NCBI GenBank assembly: GCA_033549065.1
Contig: JAWSUE010000011.1
Location: 1-64,000, forward strand
DNA from: Bacillota bacterium
Lineage (GTDB): Bacteria > Bacillota > Dethiobacteria > DTU022
Length of the DNA: 64,000 nt
Direction: 5' to 3'
The notes under the pieces are model-generated. The model was not told the DNA's origin. It ran no database searches and saw only the letters and a list, made by a program, of their open reading frames with translations. Made by a program: the position numbers and the translations under genes. Below, piece after piece: positions 22,155-38,927 of the stretch (its first letter is position 1; every line of letters begins with the position of its first letter).

Positions 22155-25100
22155 TCAGGAGACTGGTTGATTATCACTGGAGTCCACAAGCTGCCTGGCC
22201 TGGTAAACCAGGCCTTCCACAAGTTCATCGCGACTTGTATTATCCTTACCGTCATAGTAAATTGTTGTCACCGGTATACCGGTATCCTTTTGCAGTAAAC
22301 GCTGCTGAGCCTCGACTATAGAACCGGGCATACAGGTAAAGGGCGCAACGAATATTGCCCCTGCAACCCTTTCCTTTCCGGCCAGGGCGGCAACCCTTCC
22401 CAATGTCATTGGTGGCTCGCCTCCATAGTGAGATGAAACATAACGGGACGCTTTACGCATAATCTGTAGCGCAGTGGGCTCGTTTAAATTCCCGATCAAA
22501 TATCCGGCAGCACTCTCGAGAGCCGCTTCATTATTCTGAGCAATGTTAAGCAGCAGACGGTAGAGAACTGACCTGGCATAGGTGGAAATTTTATGATTCC
22601 GTTGAAAAGACTCGGCAGCTTCAAGAGAATCGATGAGAATTGTATAGGTGAAAAGCTCGGTCATGGGCGCGAGCAGAACTTCTCCCCCTGATTGCTCGAT
22701 CTTTTCAATTACCTTCTGGTTGCAGCGTTGATCAAACCGGACGTAAAATTCACCGCCAAGCAGGATTTTTGGCTTATCTCTCTTTCTTCTTACCACTTTA
22801 TTAAATTCTGATGCGGCGTCTGCCAATAATTTTTCAAAGTCTCTTCGATGAATCCTGTTTTTGATTGATGTGCGCGATGAATTTGATTTCACCAGGTATG
22901 CTTCCACGCGATCGGCATAACGGCTAAATATCTCTTCTGCCTGCCCGCTTTTTTTCTCGTAGGGGCGAATGCTGTAGAGTAATCTGTATAGAATATCTAT
23001 CGTAACCAGGGCATTATAGAGAGTAATTACGAAACCGAAACCAAAACGCTTATATATATCGGAAAATTTAACGGCGCAAACACGGGCTTCTCCATAGCCC
23101 GATCTGTTCAGTACCAAAGCCTGTGTCGGAGCATAAAGACCATATCGACATGGACCGCAGGCCCAACCCTGGAAGAATACTTCTCCATTTTCTGGTTTAT
23201 CGCCGTTTTTCTTTAAATAAGAAAAAAAGTCCTGCAGGTTTTGGATAAAAGGCAGGCACTCTTCACCATTAACCGATCGTTGAGCAAGCGATATATCACC
23301 GTAGTCGCCGGCAGGCAGAACTTCAGCATCCAGGCCGTATCTTCTGAAAAGAGCAGCAAAGACCTCTGAATGCCTTGTCGGCCCTGGAATCAAAATCTTT
23401 TTCCAGCCCTTTTCGGAAATCTTAGTGGTCCTGGATGATATGACCCGCTTCTGCTCGATCTCCTCTTTCCCCTGACTTGTGTTTTTGAAAGCTTCCAGCC
23501 TGGTAATCATACCGGCTGCAGCAGTATGTTCATCAAGAGTCAACCGCAGGTAGTTGGTCAGATCGCTGAGATAATGGCGCAGCATGGCATTTGGCCCGCA
23601 TTTAAATGGATCAACAAAGATCAGGTATATTTTGGGCAAGCCGGTAATCAATCTTCTTTCATTCAGAAAATTAACCAGTAAGACGGTCGATAATATTTTT
23701 TGCAGTTGCGCAGGGTAGATATTTTCTATCTTTGATACCTCTTCTTGCATAAATTTTTTAAATTCCTCTCGCAACAGGTCAAATTGAGGTGACCATGTTT
23801 CTCCTCTTATCCATGACTGCAGAAAGTAAAAAATATGTTCATAGGGAATTGCGTTTATTCCGCTTTGGCGGGCATAGGTCAAGAATTGCTTCGAAATAAA
23901 CCGGTCATATAAAGTATAGCTTCTGCTTAAAACGAGGGCATTCACATCCTTTTTACGGTTTATCAGATCATGCAGAATATTTTTACCCTCATCTGCTATT
24001 TTTTTACGAAAACTATTCAGGGCTTCAAAGCCTTCCCGTACTGCTTCCCCGTGAATATTCTCGTTGAAAGAATCGCCAAGTATTTTCTCGGTTAAATTCT
24101 TCATCTGTTCTTTGATACATTCATTACCTGAACGGAAATTTAAACGGGCATATAAAGCTTTTTCCGGCAATATGCTGAGTGAATTCATAATAGTACCCCT
24201 TAGCGTTTGCAGGAGAGGACAAACGAAGGATCTGGGCCACTCTAACGCCCACTCTGGGGGCTCCATGTCGACGACTTCCGGTATAAATATATAGTCAGGT
24301 TTTTTATCGGATAGCTCCCTGTAATGACCGACAATAACCTTCATGGGGTAGCACATTTCGGAATCAAGTGCCGATTTTCCCTGATGAAGTATTTTCTCCG
24401 ACGAATGTTCTGAACTTATTATTTTACAGCCCACCCGGTTGAAAAAGGCCGCCCAGAAAGGATAGTATTCGTAATAAAGTCCGCAGCGGGCAATTCCTAC
24501 AGTCGGCCCACTATTATTATCGAGAGGAGCCACAGATTCCATCATTTCCAACCGTCTCTTTTCATACTCGGGAAAATCATTCATGCTTGTTTTTTTGTTT
24601 ATTCCCGAATAGCGTCCGCAGCGATCACCATAAATAAATTTCGAATCGTCACAAAAATTTATTACATTCAGGACACAGTTATGCTCATCTTTACAATCGG
24701 CCTTACATTCCATTTTCTCATTAGAAAAATGCCTTGTCTCAGATAAACCCCGAAAATTATTTACACCCTTAATACCTGCTGAGTCTAATTTTCTGGCCAT
24801 CAGGGCGCTACCTAATGCACCGGTCAATTCCGGTTCAGCAGGGATGATTACTTTCTTTTCCAGTATTGCTGCCAGAGCACTGGCCAAAGCATGGTTTTTT
24901 GCTGTGGCGCCTGTAAAAATAATTTTCCCTTTCAATGGTCTTCGATCTACAGTTTTACTTAGATAATTGCGGGCTGATGAGTAAGCCAGGCTGGCCAGCT
25001 GTTCGTTAAGAGGCAGACCCCGGGCTGAAGCTGAGGCCAGGATTGATTGTGATATAAGGGTACATATATCTCCAAGATCAACGCCGTATTCCGCTTTAAA

Positions 25101-26507
25101 GGCATTATCGGAAAATTCGTTTTTAATGTTGATTCCTAAAAGCTCTGCCAGATTTTCCAAAAAAGTACCCGTCCCGGCTGCACATACCGGGTTCATGCTG
25201 TAATCAGAAAGTATACCATTTTCCAGCTGAATAAACTTTGAATCCTCTCCGCCGATCTCAATTATGGAAAGGGTATCTTCATCTGAGAAATGTGATTTAA
25301 CTCCTTCAGCCTGACAGGTTATTTCATCAACTGCGTATTCGGCATTTAATATTTTTTGTGAAAGAAATCTTCCGGATCCGGTTGTACAGACGATGATCTG
25401 ACTATCTTTAATCAGATTTCCATATTTTTCTTCAAGCAGCCTGATCAATTTCAGTACCTGCAAAGCAGGCCGCCCGGATGTGGGGAGATAGACTCCACCA
25501 ATATCTCTTCCAGCATAGTCAATAAGCATACCTTTTGTTGATACAGAACCACAGTCAACACCAAGATACACTTTTGATAAATCATATTGGCGGATGTTAA
25601 CCTTATGGTTTAGGTAGATAGCAAGAGCAGGATTCAAAGGGGATAGGGGGATTTCCGGATTGAAGGCATCATTACCCGGAATTCTGCTCAACAGTTTGGT
25701 AGCTGAAATCAGATTACCGTTTAATGATGCACCAATTGCATTGATATAGACATGTTCGTCGGGAAGCACTAACTTTAGCCCTGAACTTTTGGTGAATTTC
25801 TTTAAATATTTAATGACAGCCTGATTGTCGGCAACTCCACCGACAGCAACCAGGCTGCCCGGACCTTTTATCCTGTTCCGGGCAACACTGGTCAGGGCAT
25901 TTTCAACCAACGCCTGTGCCATTCCGGCAGATACGGCTCCCAGGGTTGCTCCTTCATTGATCGAATGAGTCATATCTGACTTGGCAAAAACCGCACAGCG
26001 ACCGGAAATAGGGACGGCTATATCTGATTGAACAGCTAATTCAGCAAGCTCCCGGTCGTTATAACCCATTCTCGTTGCCTGTTGATACCAGAAAGATCCA
26101 CTACCCGCTGCACATTGGCCATTGCGGTTGAAATAAGTAAGTTTTCCCGAGCGGTCAATTTCCAGGTAGTAAATATTTTCATGGCCCAATGACAGCACAT
26201 AATCAGGATCAAGATCAAGATATTCGATCCCGGCCTTAAGAGCTTCAATTTCGACAATTCGTTTCAGGCCTAAACTTCCAGCTACAAGTTTTGCATAATA
26301 CCCTGTTAAACCGACCTGAATATCTGATCTCAGAGTCTCATTTACAAGTTTCCTGATGCAGTTAAAAGCAGATTCCACCGGTTTTCCGGCAGTTAACACC
26401 ACAGCTTTTTCTATCTTTCCATCGTTAATAAGGACTCCCTTGACTGCGAAAACACCGACATCGAGGCCAAGGAATGTCCGGATATTCCGTTCTTTACCCT
26501 CAGCCAT
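22155..26507 (-). CDS. Large acyl-CoA dehydratase activase-related protein with two activase domains
   Basis: A 1450-residue cytosolic protein. Domain 1 (about 10-268) and domain 2 (about 313-575) are both ASKHA-fold ATPases of the BadF/HgdC type. Each keeps a cysteine pair at the spacing of the [4Fe-4S] ligands of HgdC: Cys132/Cys171 (CAAGSGSFW, CAVFAKS) and Cys442/Cys482 (CAAGTGTFL, CTLISQS). The rest (about 600-1440) matches the DUF2229 and 2-hydroxyacyl-CoA dehydratase D-like regions, with several cysteine motifs (GIARCGLYYEYYPF, GWACGPCRYG, VAPFTCMPGS). Classic activases use ATP to fire one electron into a dehydratase; what this giant form activates is unknown. It begins 48 bp after ornithine carbamoyltransferase, on the same strand. 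Confidence 0.8.
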   Translation of the reverse strand: MAEGKERNIRTFLGLDVGVFAVKGVLINDGKIEKAVVLTAGKPVESAFNCIRKLVNETLRSDIQVGLTGYYAKLVAGSLGLKRIVEIEALKAGIEYLDLDPDYVLSLGHENIYYLEIDRSGKLTYFNRNGQCAAGSGSFWYQQATRMGYNDRELAELAVQSDIAVPISGRCAVFAKSDMTHSINEGATLGAVSAGMAQALVENALTSVARNRIKGPGSLVAVGGVADNQAVIKYLKKFTKSSGLKLVLPDEHVYINAIGASLNGNLISATKLLSRIPGNDAFNPEIPLSPLNPALAIYLNHKVNIRQYDLSKVYLGVDCGSVSTKGMLIDYAGRDIGGVYLPTSGRPALQVLKLIRLLEEKYGNLIKDSQIIVCTTGSGRFLSQKILNAEYAVDEITCQAEGVKSHFSDEDTLSIIEIGGEDSKFIQLENGILSDYSMNPVCAAGTGTFLENLAELLGINIKNEFSDNAFKAEYGVDLGDICTLISQSILASASARGLPLNEQLASLAYSSARNYLSKTVDRRPLKGKIIFTGATAKNHALASALAAILEKKVIIPAEPELTGALGSALMARKLDSAGIKGVNNFRGLSETRHFSNEKMECKADCKDEHNCVLNVINFCDDSKFIYGDRCGRYSGINKKTSMNDFPEYEKRRLEMMESVAPLDNNSGPTVGIARCGLYYEYYPFWAAFFNRVGCKIISSEHSSEKILHQGKSALDSEMCYPMKVIVGHYRELSDKKPDYIFIPEVVDMEPPEWALEWPRSFVCPLLQTLRGTIMNSLSILPEKALYARLNFRSGNECIKEQMKNLTEKILGDSFNENIHGEAVREGFEALNSFRKKIADEGKNILHDLINRKKDVNALVLSRSYTLYDRFISKQFLTYARQSGINAIPYEHIFYFLQSWIRGETWSPQFDLLREEFKKFMQEEVSKIENIYPAQLQKILSTVLLVNFLNERRLITGLPKIYLIFVDPFKCGPNAMLRHYLSDLTNYLRLTLDEHTAAAGMITRLEAFKNTSQGKEEIEQKRVISSRTTKISEKGWKKILIPGPTRHSEVFAALFRRYGLDAEVLPAGDYGDISLAQRSVNGEECLPFIQNLQDFFSYLKKNGDKPENGEVFFQGWACGPCRYGLYAPTQALVLNRSGYGEARVCAVKFSDIYKRFGFGFVITLYNALVTIDILYRLLYSIRPYEKKSGQAEEIFSRYADRVEAYLVKSNSSRTSIKNRIHRRDFEKLLADAASEFNKVVRRKRDKPKILLGGEFYVRFDQRCNQKVIEKIEQSGGEVLLAPMTELFTYTILIDSLEAAESFQRNHKISTYARSVLYRLLLNIAQNNEAALESAAGYLIGNLNEPTALQIMRKASRYVSSHYGGEPPMTLGRVAALAGKERVAGAIFVAPFTCMPGSIVEAQQRLLQKDTGIPVTTIYYDGKDNTSRDELVEGLVYQARQLVDSSDNQPVS

Positions 26508-26555: not shown

Positions 26556-27488
26556 TTACATTATCAGTGCCATGATTGCTTTTTGAACATGCAAACGATT
26601 CTCCGCCTGATCAAATACTATTGACTGTGGGCCTTCGATAACCTCATCTGTGATCTCTTCACCCCGGTGTGCAGGTAGACAGTGCATTACCAGAACATCT
26701 TCTCTGGCATGTTCCGTCAGTTTACTATTAACCTGGTAACGGGAAAAGCTCTTTAACCTCTGCTCATATTCTTCTTCCATGCCCATACTGGTCCATACGT
26801 CGGTATAGATAATATCGGCATCTTTAACAGCCTCTGCGGGGTCTTCATTTACAGATATTGAAGCTCCTGATTTTACAGCGTCGGCCTTTGACAGCCTGGT
26901 AACTTCCGGGTCCGGTTCAAATCCAGATGGTGAGCATATCACGACATGCATGCCCATCTTCGCACCACCATACATAAGTGAATGGGCCATATTATTTCCG
27001 TCACCGATATAAGCCAGTTTTAAACCTTCCAGATTCTGCTTTTTCTCCTTGATCGAAAATAGATCAGCTAAAACCTGGCACGGATGGAGAAGATCGGTCA
27101 GGCCGTTAATAACCGGTATCGAGCTGTATTCTGCCAGGTCGACAACATCCTGGTGACTGTAAGTCCTGATCATGATACCATCGAGATAACGGCTCAAATT
27201 TCTTGCTGTATCGGCAATTGTTTCACCACGGTTCAATTGAAGATCATTGGCGCTTAAAAAAAGTGCGTACCCGCCGAGCTGCCACATCCCAACCTCAAAT
27301 GATACCCTTGTTCTTGTCGACGATTTTTGAAAGATCATACCCAACGATTTACCTTTAAGCGGATGATATATTTCGCCCAGCTTATTCTTCATTTTCAATA
27401 TATGAGCCGTATCCAGTATCTGATCTACCTCTTCCCTGCTTAAATCATGAATCGAAATTACATCCTTACCTTTCATGCTAACAGCCAT
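26556..27488 (-). CDS. argF: Ornithine carbamoyltransferase
   Basis: A 310-residue transcarbamoylase joining carbamoyl phosphate and ornithine to give citrulline (or the reverse). Carbamoyl-phosphate motif SSTRTR at 56-61, LLHPCQVLAD near 133, the ornithine-side DVWTSMG, and HCLPAHRGEEI near 268 are all present. The start is ATG with GGAGG 8 bp away. It sits alone between a thiolase and the activase, without other arginine genes, so either arginine synthesis or catabolic use of citrulline is possible. It could be linked to the carbamoyltransfer of the purine locus only through a shared pool. Confidence 0.9.
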   Translation of the reverse strand: MAVSMKGKDVISIHDLSREEVDQILDTAHILKMKNKLGEIYHPLKGKSLGMIFQKSSTRTRVSFEVGMWQLGGYALFLSANDLQLNRGETIADTARNLSRYLDGIMIRTYSHQDVVDLAEYSSIPVINGLTDLLHPCQVLADLFSIKEKKQNLEGLKLAYIGDGNNMAHSLMYGGAKMGMHVVICSPSGFEPDPEVTRLSKADAVKSGASISVNEDPAEAVKDADIIYTDVWTSMGMEEEYEQRLKSFSRYQVNSKLTEHAREDVLVMHCLPAHRGEEITDEVIEGPQSIVFDQAENRLHVQKAIMALIM

Positions 27489-27507: not shown

Positions 27508-28686
27508 TTAAACTCTCTCAACGGTGCAGGCAATACCCTGGCCGCCACCGATGCACAAAGTAGCCAGACCCTTTTTTGAATCTCGTTTTTGCATTTCGTG
27601 AACCAGGGTTACAAATATTCTTGCTCCGCTTGCCCCAATGGGATGACCAAGCGCAATAGCACCGCCGTTGACATTTACGATATCAGGGTTAAAATCAAGT
27701 TCTTTCATCACACTCAGTGCCTGAACTGCAAAAGCCTCGTTCGCCTCTATTAGATCAAGATCACTTACATCCCAACCTGAACGTTCAAGCACTTTAAGGG
27801 TTGCTGGAATTGGTCCGGTTCCCATTACAGCCGGGTCAACTCCGGCCGAAGCGCTGCTCTTGATTACACCCATTTGTATAACACCGAGTTCATCGGCTTT
27901 CTCACGGCTCATTATCAATACTGCCGCCGCACTGTCATTTATGCCTGAAGCATTTCCGGCAGTTACAGTTCCATCCTTCTTGAATGCCGGCCGCAATTTT
28001 GAAAGCGCTTCCAGCGTAGTCGCGCGTGGATGTTCATCGACTTCAAATATTACTGGATCGCCCTTTCTCTGGGGAATCGGAACGGCAACGATTTCGTCCC
28101 TGAAGCGGCCGGAAGCGATTGCAGCCTGGGCCTTATTCTGACTATCCAGGGCGAATTTATCCTGTTCTTCACGGGTTATTCCGTATTTTTCAGCAATGTT
28201 TTCAGCTGTCATGCCCATGTGATAATCACCAAAGGCACACCAGAGTCCGTCTCGGATCATCACATCGATAAAATTTCCATCACCCATACGCATGCCCCAT
28301 CTTGCATTTGGCGCAGCATAAGGCGCTGCACTCATATTTTCCGTTCCACCTGCAATTACAATCTCTACATCGCCGGCAGCAATGGCCGAAGCTGCCATCG
28401 TTATGCTTTTCAGTCCTGACCCGCATACCTTATTAATAGTGGTGCAGGGAACAGTAACCGGTAATCCGGCTTTTATAGCTGATTGGCGAGCTACATTCTG
28501 GCCCAACCCAGCCTGTAGAACACAGCCAAAGATAACCTCATCGATTAATTCCGGTTTTATTGCTGTCTTTTCCAGGAGCGCCTGCATAACTGTCTTGCCC
28601 AGATCTACGGCGCTGACAGCAGTTAGTGAGCCACCAAATGTACCGACAGCCGTTCGCACAGCGCCTACTATAACTGCTTCACGCAT
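27508..28686 (-). CDS. Acetyl-CoA acetyltransferase (thiolase)
   Basis: A 392-residue thiolase II cleaving 3-ketoacyl-CoA or condensing two acetyl-CoA. Catalytic residues: Cys88 in [11 protein letters not shown], the [11 protein letters not shown] His near 348, and Cys378 in CIGGGQG. It therefore has the full classical triad, unlike the second thiolase at 33377. It follows the two CoA-transferase genes by 33 bp and precedes ornithine carbamoyltransferase by 19 bp. A role in butyrate/branched acid oxidation or acetoacetyl-CoA formation fits the neighbours. Confidence 0.9.
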
Positions 28687-28719: not shown

Positions 28720-29493
28720 TTATTCTCCCCGGCCGATTATATATCGCAGGGGGTCTACAACATTGCGTAAAATGTTTAACTCATCCTTACTCGGTGGTTC
28801 ACTTATACCGAGATCGTCAGCCCAGAGCAACTCGAAACCGGTATTATTAATAATATCTTCCTTTGTTACTCCGGGGTGAATGCTTTCTACTTTCATCCTT
28901 TTCGATTCTTCATCAAAACCAATCACACAGAGATTGGTAATCACCTTGTAAGGCCCACTTCCGGGAGGCAACCCGGCAGTTTCACGTGCCCCCGGACCGG
29001 TTAAATAACCGGGAGTTGTAATAAAATCAATTTTTTCGGTAAACCGACGCTGATCCTGGGGGGTAATCATCATCGTCTTCCAGCAAAGCGAACCGAGATC
29101 ATTCGCTCCGCCGCTTCCGGGGAAACGAACTTTAGGTTTCTGGTGATCTGTTCCGATCATTGTTGAGTTAATGTTGCCGTATTGATCAATCTGTGCCCCG
29201 CCTAAGAATGTATAATCAACCAGACCTCGCTGGCAGGTTTCCATAATTTCAGGCATACTACTCGCTGCAAGAGCCCGGTAAAACGTCCGGGAATCTCCAA
29301 CAGAAATTGGCATCGAGGGAAGCAGCGGACCGATCCCGCCAGCCTCAAACATGATCATCAACCTGGGTGAGTATATTTTTTGAGCAAGCATAGCCGCCGC
29401 ACATGGCGCACCTGTTCCGACAACAACTATACTGTCGTCTTCAAGGTAGCGGGATGCAAGGCAGATCATTAATTCCATATCATTATATTTCAT
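28720..29493 (-). CDS. CoA-transferase subunit B (glutaconate CoA-transferase type)
   Basis: A 257-residue beta subunit of the family I CoA-transferases, with GctB-like order: MICLASRYLEDDSIVVVGTG at the start, MFEAGGIGPLLPS where the glutamate is at the place of the catalytic Glu of the beta subunit, and YTFLGGAQIDQYGNINST. It pairs with the alpha subunit encoded just before it (31-bp gap). The enzyme swaps CoA between acyl-CoA and an acid. Homologues also act as ring-opening hydrolases (IpdAB in steroid breakdown), so transferase function is probable but not proved. ATG at 29493 after GGGGAGG. Confidence 0.85.
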   Translation of the reverse strand: MKYNDMELMICLASRYLEDDSIVVVGTGAPCAAAMLAQKIYSPRLMIMFEAGGIGPLLPSMPISVGDSRTFYRALAASSMPEIMETCQRGLVDYTFLGGAQIDQYGNINSTMIGTDHQKPKVRFPGSGGANDLGSLCWKTMMITPQDQRRFTEKIDFITTPGYLTGPGARETAGLPPGSGPYKVITNLCVIGFDEESKRMKVESIHPGVTKEDIINNTGFELLWADDLGISEPPSKDELNILRNVVDPLRYIIGRGE

Positions 29494-29524: not shown

Positions 29525-30556
29525 TTACTTCTCAACCAGGTTCTCCTGACAACGCAGTTCCTGGAGGCGGGCCAATCCGCCAATCGTATCGAGATAATCG
29601 TTAAAATCTTTCACACCATAAATATGCTTATCCAGGAATGCCGCCAGAGTTTCCGGATCATTTTCCGCTTTCATCCATTCCCGAAGATGATCCTCATCAC
29701 TGAAATATTCATAGGCCATAGTTCCCGGGTAACCGCCAAAGGGTACTTCAATTACCGCATCGACAAGATAATATGGTATTACTGTTTTAGTCGGTTCCCG
29801 GCGGATTATTTCGTTTGGTATCAATCGTTCAGTTGTTATGATCAGTTTTTTTGCTGCCCGGGCCAGATCATAGTCAGCCACCATGATACCTTCAATCTGG
29901 CAGTTACCATATACATCTGCCCGGTGAACGTGGATTATCCCTACGTCCGGATAAAGTGCAGGAACTGCCAAATATTTAGAACCGGTAAAGGGGCATTCGA
30001 TTTCCATAGCCGCACTGTATTTCTCCGTGTCGGTTCCAAGCATGCAGCGAACCGGCAGAAAGGAAATACCCATCGCAGCTGCTTTATAGCGCCAGGTAAG
30101 AGCAGCATTTGTCCATTCAGTAAGCTTTATTGTTCCACTCTCTACTGCTTTCCTGGCTACTTTTGATAAACCACGTGCCTCAAGCCCAACAATATAGGCA
30201 ATATCACAGCGGTCAATGCATTTACCTGCGGTCAGGATTTGAAAGTCATGCGTGGCAGTATGACCGGCCAAGCCAATGTTTTTCTTCTTCTGGCGCAGCA
30301 TTTCATGCAAAACTGCTGTCGGTGTACGGTTCGCGCCAAACCCGCCTATACCGATGTAATCACCATCATTAATCAGTTCTGATACGGCCTTTTCCACCGT
30401 GGTTGTCTTTTCCACCATTTTCCGTGGTTTTTCGTCACGAAAGAAAAACCGAGCCTTGTCAGCATCAGGATCAGTAAAAATCTCTCCAACACCGGCGGGT
30501 CTGTAAGTTACTTTTCTCTCTTTGACTAATTTATTATATTCTTCCAAGCATTCCAC
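29525..30556 (-). CDS. CoA-transferase subunit A (glutaconate CoA-transferase type)
   Basis: A 343-residue alpha subunit. The Rossmann-like core shows GDYIGIGGFGANRTPTAVLH near 95-115 and LGTDTEKY, with a lengthened C-terminal helical tail (about 280-343). It stands at the head of a unit continuing with subunit B, thiolase, ornithine carbamoyltransferase and the activase. The preceding 30557-30686 gap is AT-rich and probably carries its promoter, downstream of the terminator of the next operon. Confidence 0.85.
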   Translation of the reverse strand: MECLEEYNKLVKERKVTYRPAGVGEIFTDPDADKARFFFRDEKPRKMVEKTTTVEKAVSELINDGDYIGIGGFGANRTPTAVLHEMLRQKKKNIGLAGHTATHDFQILTAGKCIDRCDIAYIVGLEARGLSKVARKAVESGTIKLTEWTNAALTWRYKAAAMGISFLPVRCMLGTDTEKYSAAMEIECPFTGSKYLAVPALYPDVGIIHVHRADVYGNCQIEGIMVADYDLARAAKKLIITTERLIPNEIIRREPTKTVIPYYLVDAVIEVPFGGYPGTMAYEYFSDEDHLREWMKAENDPETLAAFLDKHIYGVKDFNDYLDTIGGLARLQELRCQENLVEK

Positions 30557-30745: not shown

Positions 30746-32407
30746 TTAGTCTAATTTCTCCATTTCCCTTTCTTTTAAAGCTCTTCTCAATACTTTACCA
30801 ACACCTGATTTTGGAAGAGAATCGATAAATTCAACTTCTTTCGGAATTTTATATCCTGCCAGCGATTCCCGACAGTACTCTTCCAACTCCCGTGATGTCA
30901 TCACTTCTCCTTCATGCAGGACTACAAATGATTTAACGGTTTCTCCCCGGTATTGATCTGGAATTCCGATAGTGCAGGCTTCCGCTATCTTCGGATGTGA
31001 AAAAAGAATATCATCAATTTCATTGGGGTAAATATTAAATCCTCCAGCGATGATAATATCTTTTTTACGATCAACAACCGATAGGTAACCTTCCTCATCC
31101 AGGAAACCGATGTCACCGGTAAACAACCAACCATCCTTCAAAACTTCAGCAGTTTCATCAGGCTTCTTATAATAACCTTTCATTACCTGAGGCCCTTTGA
31201 TTATAATTTCACCTTTTTCACCTGCTGCCAGTTCCTTCATTCCGGTTTCGATGTCAACAATTTTTATGTCTGTATTCGGAACGGGAATTCCTTCCGTGCC
31301 TGGTTTAACTTTTCCACCCCAGGGGCTGACAGTTGCTGTAACTGTGCATTCTGTTAATCCATATATACTGATCAGATCAGATCCGTTGATCTGTTTCAAA
31401 CTATTGAAAGTATCTATTGGAAGTGGTGCACCACCTGAAAAATAACCTTTAATAAATGATAAATCCATACTTCTGAATTCCTTATTGTTGAACAATCCAT
31501 TGAATATTGTCGGCACCCCGGGCAGATAATTTGGCTTGAATTTCTTTACGGCACTCAAAACATTTTCAGGATCCGGCCTTGGAACGGTTATGGCTTCCAA
31601 TCCCATCCATACAGGTAAGTTCTGCATCAAAGAAAATCCGGCAGTATGAAAGTATGGTAAATCAGCCAGCATCTTCTCCCCTGTTTCTATACCCGGAAGC
31701 CATGCTGCAAATTGCTGAACGTTAACGGAAAGATTTGCATGTGTCTGCATAACTCCTTTGCTTAATCCCGTAGTTCCTCCTGTATATAAAAGGGCAGCCA
31801 CTTCATCCCATGCAGATTTATCCTCTACAGGTTTTGAAGGATATTTGTTTACAAGGTCTGTAAACTGAAATATATTATCACCTGGTACAATCTTGCGGTA
31901 CATATCCTTTTTAACCAACGGGTAGATCTGTTTCAGGGGGAAAGGCAGGTAATCATTTATATGACAGGTTATAATCTTTTCCAGGTACGTCTCTTTCTGC
32001 AAATTTTGCATCCTCGGCAGTAATAAATCAAGAGCAACAGCAATTTTAGACTCTGAATCATTGAGCTGGTGTTTTAACTCTCTTTCTGTGTATAGTGGAT
32101 TGTTCATCACACTCACCGCACCCAGGCGAAACACTGCGTAGTTTGCTATAACAGTCTGAGGCAGATTGGGTAAAAGCAGCGCAACTTTATCTCCTTCAGT
32201 TACACCCAGATCAGTGAGTGCCCTGGCAAATCTGTTTACCAGATGATCCAGTTCGCGATAGGATATCTTCTTACCCATCCAATTCAATGCAGTCTGTTCC
32301 GGATACTTTTCAGCAGTCCGGCTGAGTACCCGGGGCATGGTAATTCTTTCAAATTCAATTTCCTCCGGAACTCCCGGAGCATATACCTTTAACCAGGGCC
32401 GGGACAT
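30746..32407 (-). CDS. Long-chain/aryl fatty acid-CoA ligase (AMP-forming)
   Basis: A 553-residue ANL-superfamily ligase making acyl-CoA with ATP through acyl-AMP. Motifs: LLYTGGTTGLSKGVMQTHAN (P-loop A3), YGLTECT (A5), GWLFTGDIGFLDEEGY (A7), and the C-terminal KSGVGKVLRR with the catalytic Lys. The frame opens at 32503, but ATG 32407-32405 has AGGGAGG 8 bp away and gives the normal family length; a GTG further upstream also has a ribosome site. It is the last gene of the acyl-CoA operon; the 171-bp gap before it is the largest in the unit. Substrate unknown. Confidence 0.88.
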   Translation of the reverse strand: MSRPWLKVYAPGVPEEIEFERITMPRVLSRTAEKYPEQTALNWMGKKISYRELDHLVNRFARALTDLGVTEGDKVALLLPNLPQTVIANYAVFRLGAVSVMNNPLYTERELKHQLNDSESKIAVALDLLLPRMQNLQKETYLEKIITCHINDYLPFPLKQIYPLVKKDMYRKIVPGDNIFQFTDLVNKYPSKPVEDKSAWDEVAALLYTGGTTGLSKGVMQTHANLSVNVQQFAAWLPGIETGEKMLADLPYFHTAGFSLMQNLPVWMGLEAITVPRPDPENVLSAVKKFKPNYLPGVPTIFNGLFNNKEFRSMDLSFIKGYFSGGAPLPIDTFNSLKQINGSDLISIYGLTECTVTATVSPWGGKVKPGTEGIPVPNTDIKIVDIETGMKELAAGEKGEIIIKGPQVMKGYYKKPDETAEVLKDGWLFTGDIGFLDEEGYLSVVDRKKDIIIAGGFNIYPNEIDDILFSHPKIAEACTIGIPDQYRGETVKSFVVLHEGEVMTSRELEEYCRESLAGYKIPKEVEFIDSLPKSGVGKVLRRALKEREMEKLD

Positions 32408-32578
32408 TTCAAACGCCTCCCTAAAATTATTTGTTTTCTGATTCACTTTATACTCCTCTCTCTCACCTCTTCCCAGGCTGACCAGTAATAAAAACTGCTG
32501 CAAAATGAACGGTTAAAATGCTTTGTCCGATTATGCAGCAGCAATTACTGAATAAAATTTAGGTTACTGATCTATTTA

Positions 32579-33373
32579 CTATTTTCCTTTAAATTCAGGT
32601 TTACGCTTTTCCAGGAAAGCTATTACTCCTTCCCTATGGTCTTCTGTCTGAAAACAGAAGCTCTGAGCATATATTTCCAGTTCCATTACAGCTTCCAGGC
32701 TGAGGTTACTGCTTGCATTGAGTATCTCCTTAGCCTGGGCCAGCGCTACAGACGGACCATCAGCCAGTTTTTGAGCCAGCACTATAGTTTCATCCAGTAG
32801 TTTTTCTTCCGGATATATTCTGTTAACGATCCCGATCCGTACTGCTTCTGCAGCATCGATATTTTCTCCGGTAAAAACCAGTTCTTTTGCTTTTTGCAAG
32901 CCCACCAGCCGGGGAAGAAAATAGAGTGCTCCACAGTCGGGAATGGCCCCTACTTTAATAAACGCCATGCCAAACCTTGAAGATTCAGATGCAATGATTA
33001 AATCACACATCAAAGCCAGGGAAAAACCGGCTCCCACGGCATAGCCGTTTACAGCAGCCAGTACAGGCTTTTTGATTCTTGACAGTTCAAGAATCTGACG
33101 ATAGCCGTCTTTCAACCACTGTCTGCCTTCCAACAGCTCAAACCCCTGCATCAGTTTACCAAGGTCGCCACCGGAAGAGAATACCTTTCCCGTCCCGGTG
33201 ATTACAACGGCTCCGATTTGGTCATCGTCAGCCGCGATCCGGACAGCGTCCACCAGGTCTTTAGCCAGTGCTTCTTCCAATGCATTCATTATTTCCGGAC
33301 GGTTAAGACGGATTAATAAAACACGACCGTTTTTTTCGCATAGGATATTCTCATAATCTTTCACGCTGTCCAC
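32579..33373 (-). CDS. Enoyl-CoA hydratase/isomerase family protein
   Basis: A 264-residue crotonase. The oxyanion-hole part VVITGTGKVFSSGGDLGKL and AAVNGYAVGAGFSLALMCDL are clear, with KVGAIPDCGALYFLPRLVG beyond. The first catalytic Glu of true hydratases appears replaced (AFIKVG), and the second is Asp in IPDCG, as in PaaG-like isomerases, so an isomerase or branched-substrate role is more likely than simple hydration. The stop of the thiolase gene lies 3 bp upstream; the frame starts with GTG and a second GTG three codons later is at a better distance from AAGGGG. Confidence 0.85.
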   Translation of the reverse strand: MDSVKDYENILCEKNGRVLLIRLNRPEIMNALEEALAKDLVDAVRIAADDDQIGAVVITGTGKVFSSGGDLGKLMQGFELLEGRQWLKDGYRQILELSRIKKPVLAAVNGYAVGAGFSLALMCDLIIASESSRFGMAFIKVGAIPDCGALYFLPRLVGLQKAKELVFTGENIDAAEAVRIGIVNRIYPEEKLLDETIVLAQKLADGPSVALAQAKEILNASSNLSLEAVMELEIYAQSFCFQTEDHREGVIAFLEKRKPEFKGK

Positions 33374-33376
33374 CCC

Positions 33377-34582
33377 TTAATCCAATCCAAGTATGCAAAT
33401 ACTGGCTACATTCTGGGAAGGAACACCTCCCAGGTTATGAGTCAGGCCTAATTTTGGATCTTTCACAAGACGATCTTCCGGCCAGCGCCTTAAAAGCTGG
33501 TTGTAAATCTCATAAAGCATCCTCAGTCCCGAAGCGCCGATAGGATGACCGAAACATTTAAGTCCGCCATCAGGTTGAGAAGCAACCTGCCCGTCCAGAT
33601 CGTAGAATCCATCAATGATATCATCAGGTGCCTGGCCGGGAGGTGAAATCTGAAGATCTTCCATCGTTACCATTTCAGTGATTGAAAAACAATCGTGAAC
33701 CTCAATCATACCGATCTCTTCACGGGGATTTTTGATACCTGCTTCTTTATAAGCCAGTTTTGCAGCCTGTCTCGTTGTCAAAAGACCGCTGCCATCCCAC
33801 TGATTGTAGCTTAATTCTTCACCTGAACTTACCGAGATCTGCAGTGCCTTTACTTTTACCAACGACTGGTTCGGCTTAAAATTCGCTGCTATTTCCGGTG
33901 TAGTAACTATTGCCATCGCCGATCCGTCACTCACGCCACAACAGTCGAAAAGGCCTAATGGATAAGCCACAAAAGGAGAATCGGCGATCTGCATTTCAGA
34001 AATCTCTTTGCGCAGATGAGCTTTTGGATTTTTTGCTCCATTTTGATGACTTTTCCATGAAATATGGGTAATCGCCTGCTTTATTTTCTCCATCGGAATA
34101 TCATGTTTTGCCGAATAAGCGGTAGCAAGCTGGGCAAACATCCCTGGTGCAGTAGCATTAGGGCTGAGCAGCCTGGATAGCTGACCAAATATAGGCGAAT
34201 CGGGCAGCCCTCCATAACCTACATCCTTCAGTTTTTCAACACCTGCAGCCAGCACAATGTCATATGCTCCGGAAGCAACTGCATAGCAGGCCCCCCGGAA
34301 TGCTTCTGTCCCTGATGCACAGAAATTTTCCACCCGTGTCACCGGTATTAAGGGCAGGTGCAGTGCATTGGCCAGGTAACAGCCTCCTTTACCGATGCTT
34401 ATTTCATCAATATGATTACCGATCCAGGCCGCCTGAATATCTTTTTTTTCGATTCCCGCATCATCAAGGCACTCCAGAAAAGCCTCAATCAGAAGATCAC
34501 TTGAATCATCTTCCCATCTTTCACCAAAAACTGAACATCCCATTCCCAAAACCGCAACCTTATCTCTGATACCAGCTGCCAT
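33377..34582 (-). CDS. SCP2-type thiolase family protein
   Basis: A 401-residue thiolase of the sterol-carrier-protein/lipid-transfer group. Nucleophile Cys88 lies in VENFCASGTEAF, the SCP2-type block VHDCFSITEMVTMEDL is near 290, and [17 protein letters not shown] carries the His. The second catalytic Cys of ordinary thiolases is missing (HNLGGVPSQN in place of CxGG), as in archaeal thiolases that work in a complex with HMG-CoA synthase and a DUF35 protein, in BbsB, and in Ltp aldolases. The neighbouring gene, one base away, encodes an HMG-CoA-synthase-like/DUF35 fusion, so a stable complex is likely. ATG after AAGGAGGTG. Confidence 0.88.
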   Translation of the reverse strand: MAAGIRDKVAVLGMGCSVFGERWEDDSSDLLIEAFLECLDDAGIEKKDIQAAWIGNHIDEISIGKGGCYLANALHLPLIPVTRVENFCASGTEAFRGACYAVASGAYDIVLAAGVEKLKDVGYGGLPDSPIFGQLSRLLSPNATAPGMFAQLATAYSAKHDIPMEKIKQAITHISWKSHQNGAKNPKAHLRKEISEMQIADSPFVAYPLGLFDCCGVSDGSAMAIVTTPEIAANFKPNQSLVKVKALQISVSSGEELSYNQWDGSGLLTTRQAAKLAYKEAGIKNPREEIGMIEVHDCFSITEMVTMEDLQISPPGQAPDDIIDGFYDLDGQVASQPDGGLKCFGHPIGASGLRMLYEIYNQLLRRWPEDRLVKDPKLGLTHNLGGVPSQNVASICILGLD

Positions 34583-34583
34583 A

Positions 34584-36044
34584 TCAAGACACCTCCTTAG
34601 CAGGTACCGCTTTCCAGAAATAAAAAGTGGTGTCCCTTTTTGGATCTACATATTTTATTCTGAATGAGAAATTCACCTTTATCCCAACTTTCAGATCTTC
34701 AAGTACGCAGTCAGTGAAATCCATCATTAACCTTCCTCCGCCCTCAAAGTCTATATTGCCATAAATAGCAGGAGGATTTAATGTTGCTGCAAGCATATCT
34801 GAAGTAAAGCTGACAATTTTGCCGGTTTTTCCGGACAAAATAATCGGTACCATTTGATCAATTGCTCCGCATTCGGGATTAACACAAACTCTCTGTGGCG
34901 GGTACTGCTGGGTTCCACAGGCTAAACATTTTGTGCCCTGCATGCTGGAAATTGCTTTTCGGTTTCGCCACACCAGGGACCAGCGGGTCAGTCTCTCCTC
35001 TTCGCCCCTCATGCCAATCTCAACAGGTAACATTTCCCTCCATGCCAGATATTTTTGGAAATTATCAAGATCCTGCCTGTTCCTGATGGAATCTGTAACC
35101 CTTAACCTGTTTTTATAGTTTTCTATTTCACCTGTAACCTCGAAGTAGAGCGCATCACAGCCATTGCCGTAACTGATAACTGCTATTTTATCCCCAGGAG
35201 AAGCATCCTCAAGAGAAGCTGCCAACATCAGAAGCGGATGAGCCGAACCGGTATCTCCGGCATCCATCATCAGGTCATCCTGAACCTGTTCAGAATCAAT
35301 TTTCAGTCGACGGTTTATATTCTTCCGGGCTCCCCCGTAATAACAGGGATAAATCACTTTTTTAAAATCAGCTATTTGAAGGCTGTATTTATCGCAGAGT
35401 CCCTGAATAGCCTGAGGAATGAAGCGGTCATAGCCCATATCCCTGATCCATCGTTCTTCCCACTGACGATCATATTTAGAATTTTCACCACGCAAGTGAT
35501 CAACAAAATCGCAAGCCATTGAAAAAGCGCCTTTAAATTCCGCCAGAACATTTTCACAACTGATCAGAAGTGCGGCTCCCCCATCACCAAATACCATTTC
35601 CTGAACTGACCCCACTTTGCCTATCCTGCAGTCAGACGCACAGGCCATGGCGTTTCTGCCACTGCCGGAGGCTACAAATTCAATCGCAGATAACAGCGCT
35701 GCCGTTCCTGATTTTACCGAACCCGAAAAATCTGCTGTTCTGATAGTTTCTCCGGCAGCTAAAGCCCCGGAAATAATATTGGCATTTTGACGTTCACGGT
35801 AAGGGGCTGTGGTTGAAGCAAAGTAGAGCGCTTCAATATCAGCCGGATTGAACCCCTGCATGCATTTCATTCCTGCCGCGACAGCCATTGTAATTGAGTC
35901 CTCATCATAATTGGCTACTGCTTTATCTCCGGCTGCGTTCATGATAATAGCAGGATTCAACCATCCCATGGCGCTAAATATTTGCATTCGATTTATACGA
36001 TAACGGGGGATATACCCCGCAAATGAACTGATACCAACCAACAT
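34584..36044 (-). CDS. HMG-CoA-synthase-like protein fused to a DUF35 OB-fold/zinc ribbon
   Basis: A 486-residue fusion. Residues 1-330 have the fold of 3-hydroxy-3-methylglutaryl-CoA synthase (GISSFAGYIPRYRINR start; FGDGGAALLIS; ISYGNGCDALYFEVT). Residues 345-486 form a DUF35 unit: a zinc ribbon with Cys373, Cys376, Cys387 and Cys392, then an OB-fold. In archaea DUF35 is a separate protein that bridges thiolase and HMG-CoA synthase. Compared with the family from memory, the nucleophile Cys position reads Val110 (ADFSGSVKSGTAAL), the Glu position reads Thr near 78, and the catalytic His region reads YPCYYGGARK, so ordinary condensing activity looks lost. The role may be structural or a different lyase chemistry. 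Stop is one base from the thiolase start. Confidence 0.85.
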   Translation of the reverse strand: MLVGISSFAGYIPRYRINRMQIFSAMGWLNPAIIMNAAGDKAVANYDEDSITMAVAAGMKCMQGFNPADIEALYFASTTAPYRERQNANIISGALAAGETIRTADFSGSVKSGTAALLSAIEFVASGSGRNAMACASDCRIGKVGSVQEMVFGDGGAALLISCENVLAEFKGAFSMACDFVDHLRGENSKYDRQWEERWIRDMGYDRFIPQAIQGLCDKYSLQIADFKKVIYPCYYGGARKNINRRLKIDSEQVQDDLMMDAGDTGSAHPLLMLAASLEDASPGDKIAVISYGNGCDALYFEVTGEIENYKNRLRVTDSIRNRQDLDNFQKYLAWREMLPVEIGMRGEEERLTRWSLVWRNRKAISSMQGTKCLACGTQQYPPQRVCVNPECGAIDQMVPIILSGKTGKIVSFTSDMLAATLNPPAIYGNIDFEGGGRLMMDFTDCVLEDLKVGIKVNFSFRIKYVDPKRDTTFYFWKAVPAKEVS

Positions 36045-36062: not shown

Positions 36063-36908
36063 TTATATGTTCAACCATACAGCAGCATTGGTCAGGCAAT
36101 ATTCGCCGCGTTCGGCTGTTTTCGAACGGATGATTATCTGGTCATCCTTTACCTTCCACATTTCTGTTACGATTGTTTCACCGGGGAATACATGCCTTGA
36201 GAAACGAACCTTAATCGCTTTGAAACGGGATGGATCATTCCCACAATATTCTCTGATCACGGCCCGCCCCGCAAATCCGAAAGTACAAAGACCGTGAAGT
36301 ATCGGTTTTTCAAAACCACCCATCGCAGCAAAGCCTGGATCTGCATGCAGCGGGTTGAAATCACCAGAAAGTCTGTATAATAAGGCCTGCTGCGGCAATG
36401 TTTTCATTTCTACAACCCGATCCGGCTTTCTTTCCGGAGGTTCATTGCCTGGTTCAGGTCCGCGATCCCCGCCGAAACCTCCTTCACCCCTGATAAAAGT
36501 ACTGAACCGATTCATGAAAAGCTCTTCACCCTTTGAATCCCTGGTGGTCACATCAATTTCTACCAGGGCCCCTTTACCCTTGTCAAATATTCCTGATATT
36601 TTGGGATATGAAGTCATTTTGCCTTCTACAGGTATCGTTTTGTAGATCTCAAGATACTGTTCTCCGTGCAGAAGCATGGCCAGGTTAAAATCCATCCCTT
36701 CCATGCCAACTATACCCATCAGCGCTCCAAATGGCGGAATAACCCCATAGGTTGGGATAACCTCAAGTTCATTCTCATAAACAAATTTAAGTTCATCCGG
36801 TTCTGCTCCCGCGCCTATTCCCAGGGCATAAAGGATTATGTCCTTGGTAGAGTAACTGATTTCCAGTGAAGGCAGTTCTTTACCAACCAATTTCGGATCT
36901 ATCGGCAT
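36063..36908 (-). CDS. MaoC-like (R)-specific enoyl-CoA hydratase with double hotdog fold
   Basis: A 281-residue hydratase-2 like that of peroxisomal multifunctional enzyme type 2. The N-terminal hotdog lacks catalytic residues; the C-terminal one carries the signature YRLSGDFNPLHADPGFA, with the Asp/His pair, followed by PILHGLCTFGFAGRAV. It makes (3R)-hydroxyacyl-CoA from 2-enoyl-CoA, often with long or branched chains. The frame opens two codons earlier, but ATG 36908 (MPIDPKLVGKEL) has AAAGGAG at a better distance. The preceding SDR gene supplies the matching dehydrogenase. Confidence 0.88.
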   Translation of the reverse strand: MPIDPKLVGKELPSLEISYSTKDIILYALGIGAGAEPDELKFVYENELEVIPTYGVIPPFGALMGIVGMEGMDFNLAMLLHGEQYLEIYKTIPVEGKMTSYPKISGIFDKGKGALVEIDVTTRDSKGEELFMNRFSTFIRGEGGFGGDRGPEPGNEPPERKPDRVVEMKTLPQQALLYRLSGDFNPLHADPGFAAMGGFEKPILHGLCTFGFAGRAVIREYCGNDPSRFKAIKVRFSRHVFPGETIVTEMWKVKDDQIIIRSKTAERGEYCLTNAAVWLNI

Positions 36909-36948
36909 AACCATTCTCCTTTCTCACGTAACCTTTTATCTTCCAGGA

Positions 36949-37860
36949 TTAACCCATACTCATTTTTGATAGAACTGTGCCGGCCTGTTCCATGGCTGAG
37001 GCAAATTCACTTCCACCTTCAAGATTTTTGATCTCATCGAATTTATCCACAATCATCTCGATTGTTATCGCTTTTTCAGGATTAAAGACCACACCGGGCC
37101 CTTCGACTATTGCAGCCCTGCTAAAATATCCACCACCGGCACTGAACATTTTTCCGCTTTCCTCACATTTTTCAGAGCAGAGCCAGGCAACAATGGGAGC
37201 TACATAGTCAGGCTTAACCTTACCGATAACTTCTTCGGGCATAACGGTAAAAGTTAACCTGGTTCCGGCAGTTGGAACGATTGTATTTGCTTTGATGTTG
37301 TATCTGGCGCCTTCCTGCGCAACACAGTTCATCATTCCGGCAATTCCCATTTTAGCCGCACCATAATTAACCTGTCCAAAATTTCCGTACAAACCTGCTG
37401 CCGATGCTGTTGAGACAATCCTGCCGTATGTCTGGTCTTTCATGCCGGCAAAAGCCGCTTTTGTACAATAAAATGTTCCATCCAGATGCACCGACATAAT
37501 CTTGCGATAATCTTCCATTTCCATCTTTAACAGGCTTTTATCCCTTAAAATACCGGCATTATTGATCAGTATATCGAGGCGGCCGTATTTATCAATTGCC
37601 GTTTCTATTATATTTTGAGCGCTTTCCCACTCTGCTACACTATCGTAATTTGCCACTGCTTCACCACCCGCAGACTTGATCTCATTGACAACCATCTGGG
37701 CAGGAGTAGTGTCAGAACCGCTGCCGTCAAAAGTTCCACCAAGATCATTGACAACGACTTTTGCACCACGTGATGCAAGTAAAAGGGCGTAAGCTTTTCC
37801 AAGACCTCCTCCAGCTCCGGTGATCACTGCTACTTTCCCGTCAAACCTGATTTCTTCCAT
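36949..37860 (-). CDS. SDR (3R)-hydroxyacyl-CoA dehydrogenase, MFE-2 type
   Basis: A 303-residue short-chain dehydrogenase resembling the dehydrogenase part of peroxisomal MFE-2/HSD17B4. Cofactor loop TGAGGGLGKAYALLLASRGA near 15-34, NNAG near 101, catalytic Ser in VSTASAAGLYG, and YGAAK for Tyr/Lys. The C-terminal extension beyond 250 is also as in MFE-2. NAD(H) use is expected. It is the first gene of the operon, 40 bp before the MaoC gene; a good promoter lies directly upstream. Confidence 0.9.
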   Translation of the reverse strand: MEEIRFDGKVAVITGAGGGLGKAYALLLASRGAKVVVNDLGGTFDGSGSDTTPAQMVVNEIKSAGGEAVANYDSVAEWESAQNIIETAIDKYGRLDILINNAGILRDKSLLKMEMEDYRKIMSVHLDGTFYCTKAAFAGMKDQTYGRIVSTASAAGLYGNFGQVNYGAAKMGIAGMMNCVAQEGARYNIKANTIVPTAGTRLTFTVMPEEVIGKVKPDYVAPIVAWLCSEKCEESGKMFSAGGGYFSRAAIVEGPGVVFNPEKAITIEMIVDKFDEIKNLEGGSEFASAMEQAGTVLSKMSMG

Positions 37861-38063: not shown

Positions 38064-38927
38064 ATGGAAATCGCCACAGCAGAAAAAGTCATGCGCATCG
38101 GTGAACTTTCCCGGCGTTCAAAAATCAGCAAACAGCTGATTCATTACTACCTGCGAAGAGGCTATCTCCATCCACCTGTATTTAAAAAGAGCAATCAGGC
38201 TTATTATGATCAAACCCATCTTGAACGTCTTCTTTTTCTTCGCAAATGCAATGAAGAAGCTATTCCCCTTTCGCATGCTGCAGCAACATGGGAGAAAGTA
38301 ACTGCCAAAAAGAAAAAATCCGGAACGAAAAGGAAACTAAAAGATAATGTTGAGTCAAAAACCCGCGATAGTATCATCAGGGAAGCATCACAGATATTTT
38401 TACGTAAAGGATACAGCAGCCCCAGTATTGCCGAAATAATGGAGAAAGTAGGTGTTACAAAACCTTCCTTTTATTACTACTTTAGAAATAAAAAAGACCT
38501 TTACCTGACCTGTCTGGACTGTATATTTGACTCCTTTTCCAAAAGTTCACTGGACAGTATTCGTCAGGAAACAAAACCACTAAAACGTCTCGAGCAGCGT
38601 TGGAAAGCCGGACATACATATTCAAAGCGCCTTTCTACTTCTATAAATCTGCTCAAAGATTCTCTCCGTCAGGAGGATCCCGAGGAACGAGCCAGAGCAG
38701 AGTCTATTTTACGAAAATCCTGGGTTGATCCCCTGACGAAAGATCTGGAACGCGGAATTAAAAGCGGAGATATACGTCCGGTACGCAGTGAAATTATCAG
38801 TTTTGCACTTATTTCGCTTCTGGACACCTTCATTTACAGGGAGATCCTTGAAAATAAATACGGATCAGACGCGGTGCTGGAATCAGTTTACGATCTGATC
38901 CTACACGGCCTTCTCCCAAAAAACTAA
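38064..38927 (+). CDS. MerR-TetR hybrid transcriptional regulator
   Basis: A 287-residue protein with two different DNA-binding domains. Residues 8-60 are a MerR-type winged helix (MRIGELSRRSKISKQLIHYY, then GYLHPP). A lysine-rich linker (about 82-96) leads to a TetR-type helix-turn-helix at 103-150 (RDSIIREASQIFLRKGYSS, SIAEIMEKVGVTKPSFYYYF) and a helical TetR ligand-binding tail. It is divergent from the acyl-CoA operon and most likely regulates it, sensing an acyl-CoA. Fusion of the two families in one chain is unusual; the frame is continuous, so it is not an assembly join. Start ATG after GAGGATAG. Confidence 0.9.
   Translation: MEIATAEKVMRIGELSRRSKISKQLIHYYLRRGYLHPPVFKKSNQAYYDQTHLERLLFLRKCNEEAIPLSHAAATWEKVTAKKKKSGTKRKLKDNVESKTRDSIIREASQIFLRKGYSSPSIAEIMEKVGVTKPSFYYYFRNKKDLYLTCLDCIFDSFSKSSLDSIRQETKPLKRLEQRWKAGHTYSKRLSTSINLLKDSLRQEDPEERARAESILRKSWVDPLTKDLERGIKSGDIRPVRSEIISFALISLLDTFIYREILENKYGSDAVLESVYDLILHGLLPKN

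Follow-up and report, generated by a model that had tools for sequence, protein, structure and literature searches.

The protein encoded by FUS, a pseudo-HMG-CoA synthase (HMGCS) with a C-terminal DUF35 domain, is probably a non-catalytic scaffold for the SCP2-type thiolase encoded next to it (THL), in a two-component thiolase-DUF35-HMGCS assembly that would carry out the final reaction in a (3R)-specific β-oxidation. Both genes belong to a minus-strand operon with the order SDR, MaoC, FUS, THL, crotonase, CoA ligase, two CoA-transferase subunits and second thiolase (Table 1). This operon lies in the window, i.e., the whole stretch of 64,000 nucleotides that was analysed. An earlier reading of the sequence alone (hereafter, the sequence-only reading) had placed the SCP2-type thiolase one base away from FUS, and the ORF ends, with that of THL at 34582, confirmed this distance. 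The FUS ORF was kept in 20 public MAG loci, with 56-75% identity.

Table 1. Features of the FUS-THL locus, with positions in the window
Feature	Position	Strand	Basis
FUS: pseudo-HMG-CoA-synthase with C-terminal DUF35, 486 aa	34584..36044	-	Pfam, phmmer, fold matches
THL: SCP2-type thiolase (PRK06157), partner of FUS	33377..34582	-	NF004810, 628 bits versus a cut-off of 403
MaoC-type (3R)-enoyl-CoA hydratase 2, MFE-2 family	36063..36914	-	PF22622 and PF01575; 1S9C, E 3e-74
SDR, MFE-2-type (3R)-3-hydroxyacyl-CoA dehydrogenase	36949..37860	-	2ET6, 463 bits; HSD17B4/MFE-2 1GZ6, 310 bits
Crotonase-family enoyl-CoA hydratase/isomerase	32579..33373	-	PF00378
Acyl-CoA ligase (AMP-binding)	30746..32503	-	PF00501 and PF13193
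CoA-transferase subunit A, glutaconate CoA-transferase-like	29525..30556	-	1POI_A, 135 bits
CoA-transferase subunit B	28720..29493	-	1POI_B, 164 bits
Second thiolase, canonical acetyl-CoA C-acetyltransferase-like	27508..28686	-	ORF; family by sequence reading
MerR-TetR double regulator, divergent	38064..38927	+	PF13411 and PF00440

Domains, fold and catalytic residues

Residues ~1-340 of FUS were assigned to an HMGCS-like fold and residues ~360-484 to a zinc-ribbon/OB DUF35 domain. The DUF35 assignment rests on Pfam (PF12172 and PF01796, both above their curated cut-offs) and on a phmmer match to 6ESQ_E, the structural search bearing mainly on the HMGCS/KAS III half. The zinc cysteines C373, C376, C387 and C392, spaced as CX2C...CX4C, were invariant in an alignment of 20 sequences; Pfam and this alignment thus agreed with the earlier description of a DUF35 with these four cysteines fused to a synthase-like domain. 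In the fused relatives L041, L042 and L051, from plasmids of Sphingomonas, Variovorax and Sphingopyxis, at least one of the zinc cysteines was missing, which argues that zinc is not required for assembly in all fused relatives.

The N-terminal domain of FUS showed full-length homology to the HMG-CoA synthase profiles TIGR00748 and NF003274, with scores below the cut-off in both cases (168 versus 353 bits and 219 versus 244 bits, respectively). The AlphaFold model was of moderate confidence, with a mean pLDDT of 71 and values below 50 at residues 18-48, 181-195 and 328-361. Its comparison with archaeal HMG-CoA synthase, which the sequence-only reading had proposed, gave a VIA-align Z of 36.8 over 316 residues with 6ET9_I, and the next fold matches were CsATase, PhlA and MucA; the nearest folds (6ESQ/6ET9, PhlABC, CsATase, MucABC) thus all came from assemblies of the thiolase-DUF35-HMGCS kind. 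Relatives found by phmmer included 6ESQ_I, PhlA and MucA.

The catalytic columns were located in an alignment that combined 23 fused proteins and, among others, 6ESQ_I and PhlA; they rest on mutually agreeing sequence alignments, as the fold comparison gave no residue pairs. With respect to archaeal HMGCS (6ESQ), Cys114 was replaced in FUS by Val110, Glu82 by Thr78, and His238 (HQPN) by Pro233 (YPCYYGG). In the phmmer alignment to the bacterial MvaS 5HWQ, Val110 was found opposite the Cys of HACYGG. These are the replacements named in the sequence-only reading (Val110 for the nucleophile, Thr near position 78, YPCYYGG in the His region), whose claim that the synthase-like domain has lost all catalytic residues was upheld, the triad being gone relative to 6ESQ.

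Among 32 fused members, drawn from Bacillota, Actinomycetota, Desulfobacterota-labelled MAGs and Pseudomonadota plasmids, none carried the nucleophile Cys or the catalytic Glu (Thr or Ser in all 32), and the column of the active-site His held a His in a single one (L051). At the nucleophile column, the fused relatives carried V, I, L, A, Q, G or R. The search for an alternative active-site Cys or His, also proposed earlier, identified none conserved family-wide in the synthase domain of these 32 proteins (C61 in 24, H269 in 20 and C234 in 14 of them), and Cys234, which is next to the former His site, was invariant in the 20-sequence Bacillota/Actinomycetota/Desulfobacterota set. Since the fused members lack the triad and conserve no other Cys or His in its place, the alignments indicate a genuine, ancient and general loss rather than the defect of one gene; on the same basis, it is not peculiar to FUS, but marks the whole fused clade and its nearest unfused kin. 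We propose that the synthase domain of FUS would be unable to run the HMG-CoA-synthase reaction or a Cys-based condensation. Two other residues, E196 and R198, were invariant in all 32 fused members. At the E196 site, HMGCS, PhlA and the unfused set have a Gly; R198 is present in HMGCS as well, though not in PhlA. The invariance of these residues suggests a family-specific constraint on the domain that would not be required of a plain scaffold.

The catalytic residues of THL are intact, namely Cys88 (NFCASG), His296/Cys298 (HDCF) and His346 (GHP), and Cys88, HDCF and GHP were kept in 35 out of 35 partner thiolases. The best solved relative of THL was the archaeal thiolase 6ESQ_A (E 9e-55); comparison with BbsB and PhlC gave E values of 5.5e-37 and 1.9e-23, respectively. 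A search for the pair in other genomes, as the sequence-only reading had suggested, revealed that FUS and THL recur as neighbours, in constant order, in every locus with sufficient DNA. In the main set, 3-47 nt separated the aligned ends, and in a few pairs from other Bacillota the two mechanical ORFs overlapped slightly. As FUS is always found beside an intact thiolase, it is most likely the built-in scaffold of that enzyme. Moreover, mean pairwise identity was 44% for the HMGCS-like domain versus 60% for THL, which was higher in all of the 595 comparisons; this lower conservation would fit a catalytic THL with a structural partner, but alone is no proof of it.

Related complexes and origin of the fused family

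A role for FUS as a fused scaffold of THL is supported by precedents. In PhlABC, the HMGCS-like subunit PhlA is non-catalytic and lacks the Cys and the Glu; only PhlC contacts the substrate, yet the enzyme works only with all three components (PMC6392133). At the catalytic columns of PhlA, the Cys corresponds to Gly115 and the Glu to Cys83 (our alignment; PMC6392133). One thiolase-superfamily partner in phlABC has already been called inactive (PMC2954200), and the C88S substitution abolished the activity of CsATase (PMC12955522).

PhlABC and CsATase (5M3K, 9SKH) resemble FUS-THL in combining a dead HMGCS-like subunit, a DUF35 and an active thiolase-fold subunit with Cys88, and the part set of the PhlABC/MucABC type is complete in FUS-THL, with two parts fused. 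However, PhlABC and CsATase are made of three separate proteins and perform CoA-free aryl acylation in antibiotic biosynthesis, whereas FUS-THL is encoded by two genes of a catabolic operon, the dead synthase carrying the DUF35 and the partner resembling a CoA thiolase. The archaeal complex 6ESQ/6ET9 has the same three kinds of parts and includes both the best fold match and the best solved thiolase relative, but its HMGCS is active (Cys114, Glu82; PMC6392133), its three subunits are separate and it belongs to the mevalonate pathway. In MucABC of Streptococcus macacae (9VBO, 9VBT), the HMGCS-like subunit lacks the Cys and the Glu, as in FUS, although the proteins are unfused and serve reutericyclin/mutanocyclin biosynthesis. 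Another catabolic enzyme, the benzoylsuccinyl-CoA thiolase BbsAB (7PXP), also pairs a DUF35 partner with an SCP2-type thiolase and has, to our knowledge, no HMGCS-like domain. Finally, peroxisomal MFE-2 and SCPx share with the operon a hydratase 2, a (3R)-dehydrogenase and an SCP2-type thiolase; in the operon, these are encoded by separate bacterial genes and a pseudo-HMGCS-DUF35 partner replaces the SCP2 domain.

A maximum-likelihood tree of the HMGCS-like domain, from which the three catalytic columns were left out and which was rooted on a single active sequence, united all fused proteins in one clade (100/100). The group nearest to it (96/93) was made up of unfused proteins of Bacillota, encoded in three-gene sets, and PhlA and MucA lay outside. 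Those unfused Bacillota proteins that were aligned lacked the Cys and the Glu, and most of them kept the His. Unfused three-gene sets, in the order thiolase, HMGCS-like protein and DUF35, were observed at Bacillota loci L066-L070, L073 and L074. The simplest reading would be that catalysis was lost first and that the HMGCS-like and DUF35 genes fused later, an order that we only infer because the root of the tree is a single active sequence.

Of 299 genomes drawn from the whole phylum, 11 encode the full-length fused protein, and an at least partial match was found in 18 out of 35 other genomes of the host's family. Plasmid-borne fused proteins were identified in Sphingomonas, Variovorax, Niveispirillum, Azoarcus, Novosphingobium, Sphingobium, Tistrella, Rhodococcus, Mycobacterium avium and Sphingopyxis, with an acetyl-CoA acetyltransferase gene alongside in each case. 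The family thus spans no fewer than three phyla (Bacillota, Actinomycetota and Pseudomonadota). The only annotations in the records examined were "OB-fold domain-containing protein", "hypothetical protein" and "3-oxoacyl-ACP synthase III C-terminal domain-containing protein". Our literature search found no account of a fused HMGCS-like/OB-fold protein paired with a thiolase; DUF35 proteins fused to "members of the thiolase superfamily" had been noted earlier (PMC2954200).

Operon neighbours and pathway context

Among solved proteins, MaoC was closest to human MFE-2 hydratase 2 (1S9C), with YRLSGD-NPLH-DP kept, and the SDR to the (3R)-hydroxyacyl-CoA dehydrogenase 2ET6, followed by HSD17B4/MFE-2. 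The SDR-MaoC-FUS-THL block was found again in Bacillota, Sphingomonas and Variovorax, and at other loci acyl-CoA dehydrogenases, hydratases, CoA transferases or ring-hydroxylating dioxygenases adjoined FUS-THL. Outside the operon, the host genome encodes several acyl-CoA dehydrogenases. Together, the MFE-2-type MaoC and SDR, the recurring neighbours and the host acyl-CoA dehydrogenases point to a (3R)-specific β-oxidation ending in THL, and the operon reads as an MFE-2-like (3R) β-oxidation module with THL as its putative terminal enzyme. The earlier view of crotonase, MaoC, SDR and CoA ligase as a coherent unit can thus be refined to one with (3R) enzymes of the MFE-2 type. In peroxisomes, 2-methyl-branched chains and bile-acid precursors are degraded by the MFE-2/SCPx route; by analogy, FUS-THL might plausibly act on a bulky or branched substrate. 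The earlier "branched or ring-derived" is still a guess.

A crotonase gene follows THL in the relative loci L008, L010, L011 and L019 as well, with a CoA ligase gene downstream of the pair in L010 and L019. In L002, L004, L007 and L012, a gene for CoA-transferase subunit A adjoins FUS-THL and the second thiolase has an equivalent position; in the window, this thiolase is a neighbour outside the operon core. The MerR-TetR protein, found at the equivalent divergent site in L007, L008, L010 and L019, is likely the controller of the SDR-MaoC-FUS-THL operon. We rejected an IpdAB-like ring hydrolase as the identity of the CoA-transferase pair: 1POI was the closest solved structure, IpdAB (6CO6) and AibAB (5MZW) scored lower, and in the printed alignment the Glu of MFEAGG in subunit B matched that of GctB (IVESG).

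Other genes were observed around these clusters. An ornithine-carbamoyltransferase-like gene (26556-27488) follows the CoA-transferase and second thiolase genes, and has retained this position in L002, L004 and L012. The gene at 22155-26507 encodes a 1450-aa protein in which BadF/HgdC-type 2-hydroxyacyl-CoA dehydratase activator and dehydratase-like parts were putatively recognized by eye; a relative lies behind the corresponding cluster in L012. In L008, L010 and L019, unlike in the window, the crotonase gene is followed by genes for an FAD amine-oxidase-like protein and an FAD/NAD/2Fe-2S reductase. Elsewhere in the host genome, contig C15 (locus L076, 4314-8890) carries an acyl-CoA dehydrogenase gene, two thiolase-like genes, both without the nucleophile Cys and the second with YDPF at the HDCF site, and two tandem DUF35 genes. 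This second DUF35 system looks like an aldolase-type, Ltp/Sal-like set.

Proposed role of FUS and its alternatives

In the scaffold model, the substrate would be activated by the CoA ligase or the CoA transferase, oxidized by an acyl-CoA dehydrogenase encoded elsewhere, hydrated by MaoC, oxidized by the SDR and cleaved by THL-FUS. The two proteins would form a physical complex, in which the DUF35 half would dock FUS onto THL, and the pseudo-synthase wall and a DUF35 loop would complete the acyl/CoA cavity of THL. The chemistry would be carried out by THL alone, in the thiolytic direction, with Cys88 taking the acyl group, HDCF and GHP acting as acid/base, and CoA as the acceptor.

It is unlikely that the pseudo-HMGCS pocket has instead gained a new Cys-independent activity (lyase, hydrolase or enolisation) via the fused CoA site, acting on the product or substrate of the thiolase. 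The invariant E196 and R198, the Thr/Ser at the former Glu site and the Cys234 invariant in the 20-sequence set would suit such a step, but no catalytic-type Cys or His is kept family-wide, the nucleophile site drifts, the synthase domain is less conserved than THL, and the solved homologue PhlA is inert (PMC6392133). We regard as similarly improbable a biosynthetic complex, whether for CoA-dependent Claisen condensation or for C-acylation as in PhlABC/MucABC. Thiolases are reversible and the nearest folds include these acyltransferases; however, THL is far closer to the archaeal CoA thiolase than to PhlC, its neighbours are catabolic across phyla, and no polyketide synthase or NRPS was annotated near FUS-THL in the loci of relatives across phyla. 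Rather doubtful is a rebuilding of the HMGCS domain, with E196 and R198 among its invariants, into a Cys-free second site that would act in sequence with THL through a shared CoA site, as a two-step channelling lyase on a hindered acyl-CoA.

The sequence-only reading had offered either a scaffold or a different reaction, for example a retro-aldol one. Its first option gained support from the absence of the triad in fused relatives without replacement, from the intact THL and from the PhlABC/CsATase precedent; its second did not. With Ltp2-ChsH and Sal-Shy, FUS-THL has in common the pairing of a DUF35 with a thiolase fold and an adjoining MaoC (PMC12329534). An Ltp2/Sal-type retro-aldolase, such as those known to act on the side chains of bile acids and sterols, is nevertheless very unlikely here: these aldolases have YDHF or YDCY in place of HDCF (PMC12329534), whereas THL has HDCF and, like all 35 partner thiolases, the nucleophile (NFCASG) and GHP; the (3R)-dehydrogenase upstream would also be superfluous for that route. 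Lastly, despite the full-length homology of its N-terminal domain, FUS is most improbable as a genuine if unusual HMG-CoA synthase, given its scores below both curated cut-offs, the loss of all three catalytic residues, and a host genome with DXR in which neither HMG-CoA reductase nor an HMGCS above the cut-off was found, which also led us to reject a mevalonate role.

FUS-THL is thus most likely a two-part version of a complex so far known in three parts. If the scaffold reading is true, annotations of the fused family would need to be corrected to an obligate thiolase scaffold, the PhlABC/MucABC antibiotic acylases would be tied to a widespread catabolic enzyme, and the loss of HMGCS catalysis with retention of assembly would be common in the bacterial set sampled. 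FUS-THL would also offer a small, two-gene system in which to ask why a thiolase needs a dead sibling, as has been asked for PhlABC.
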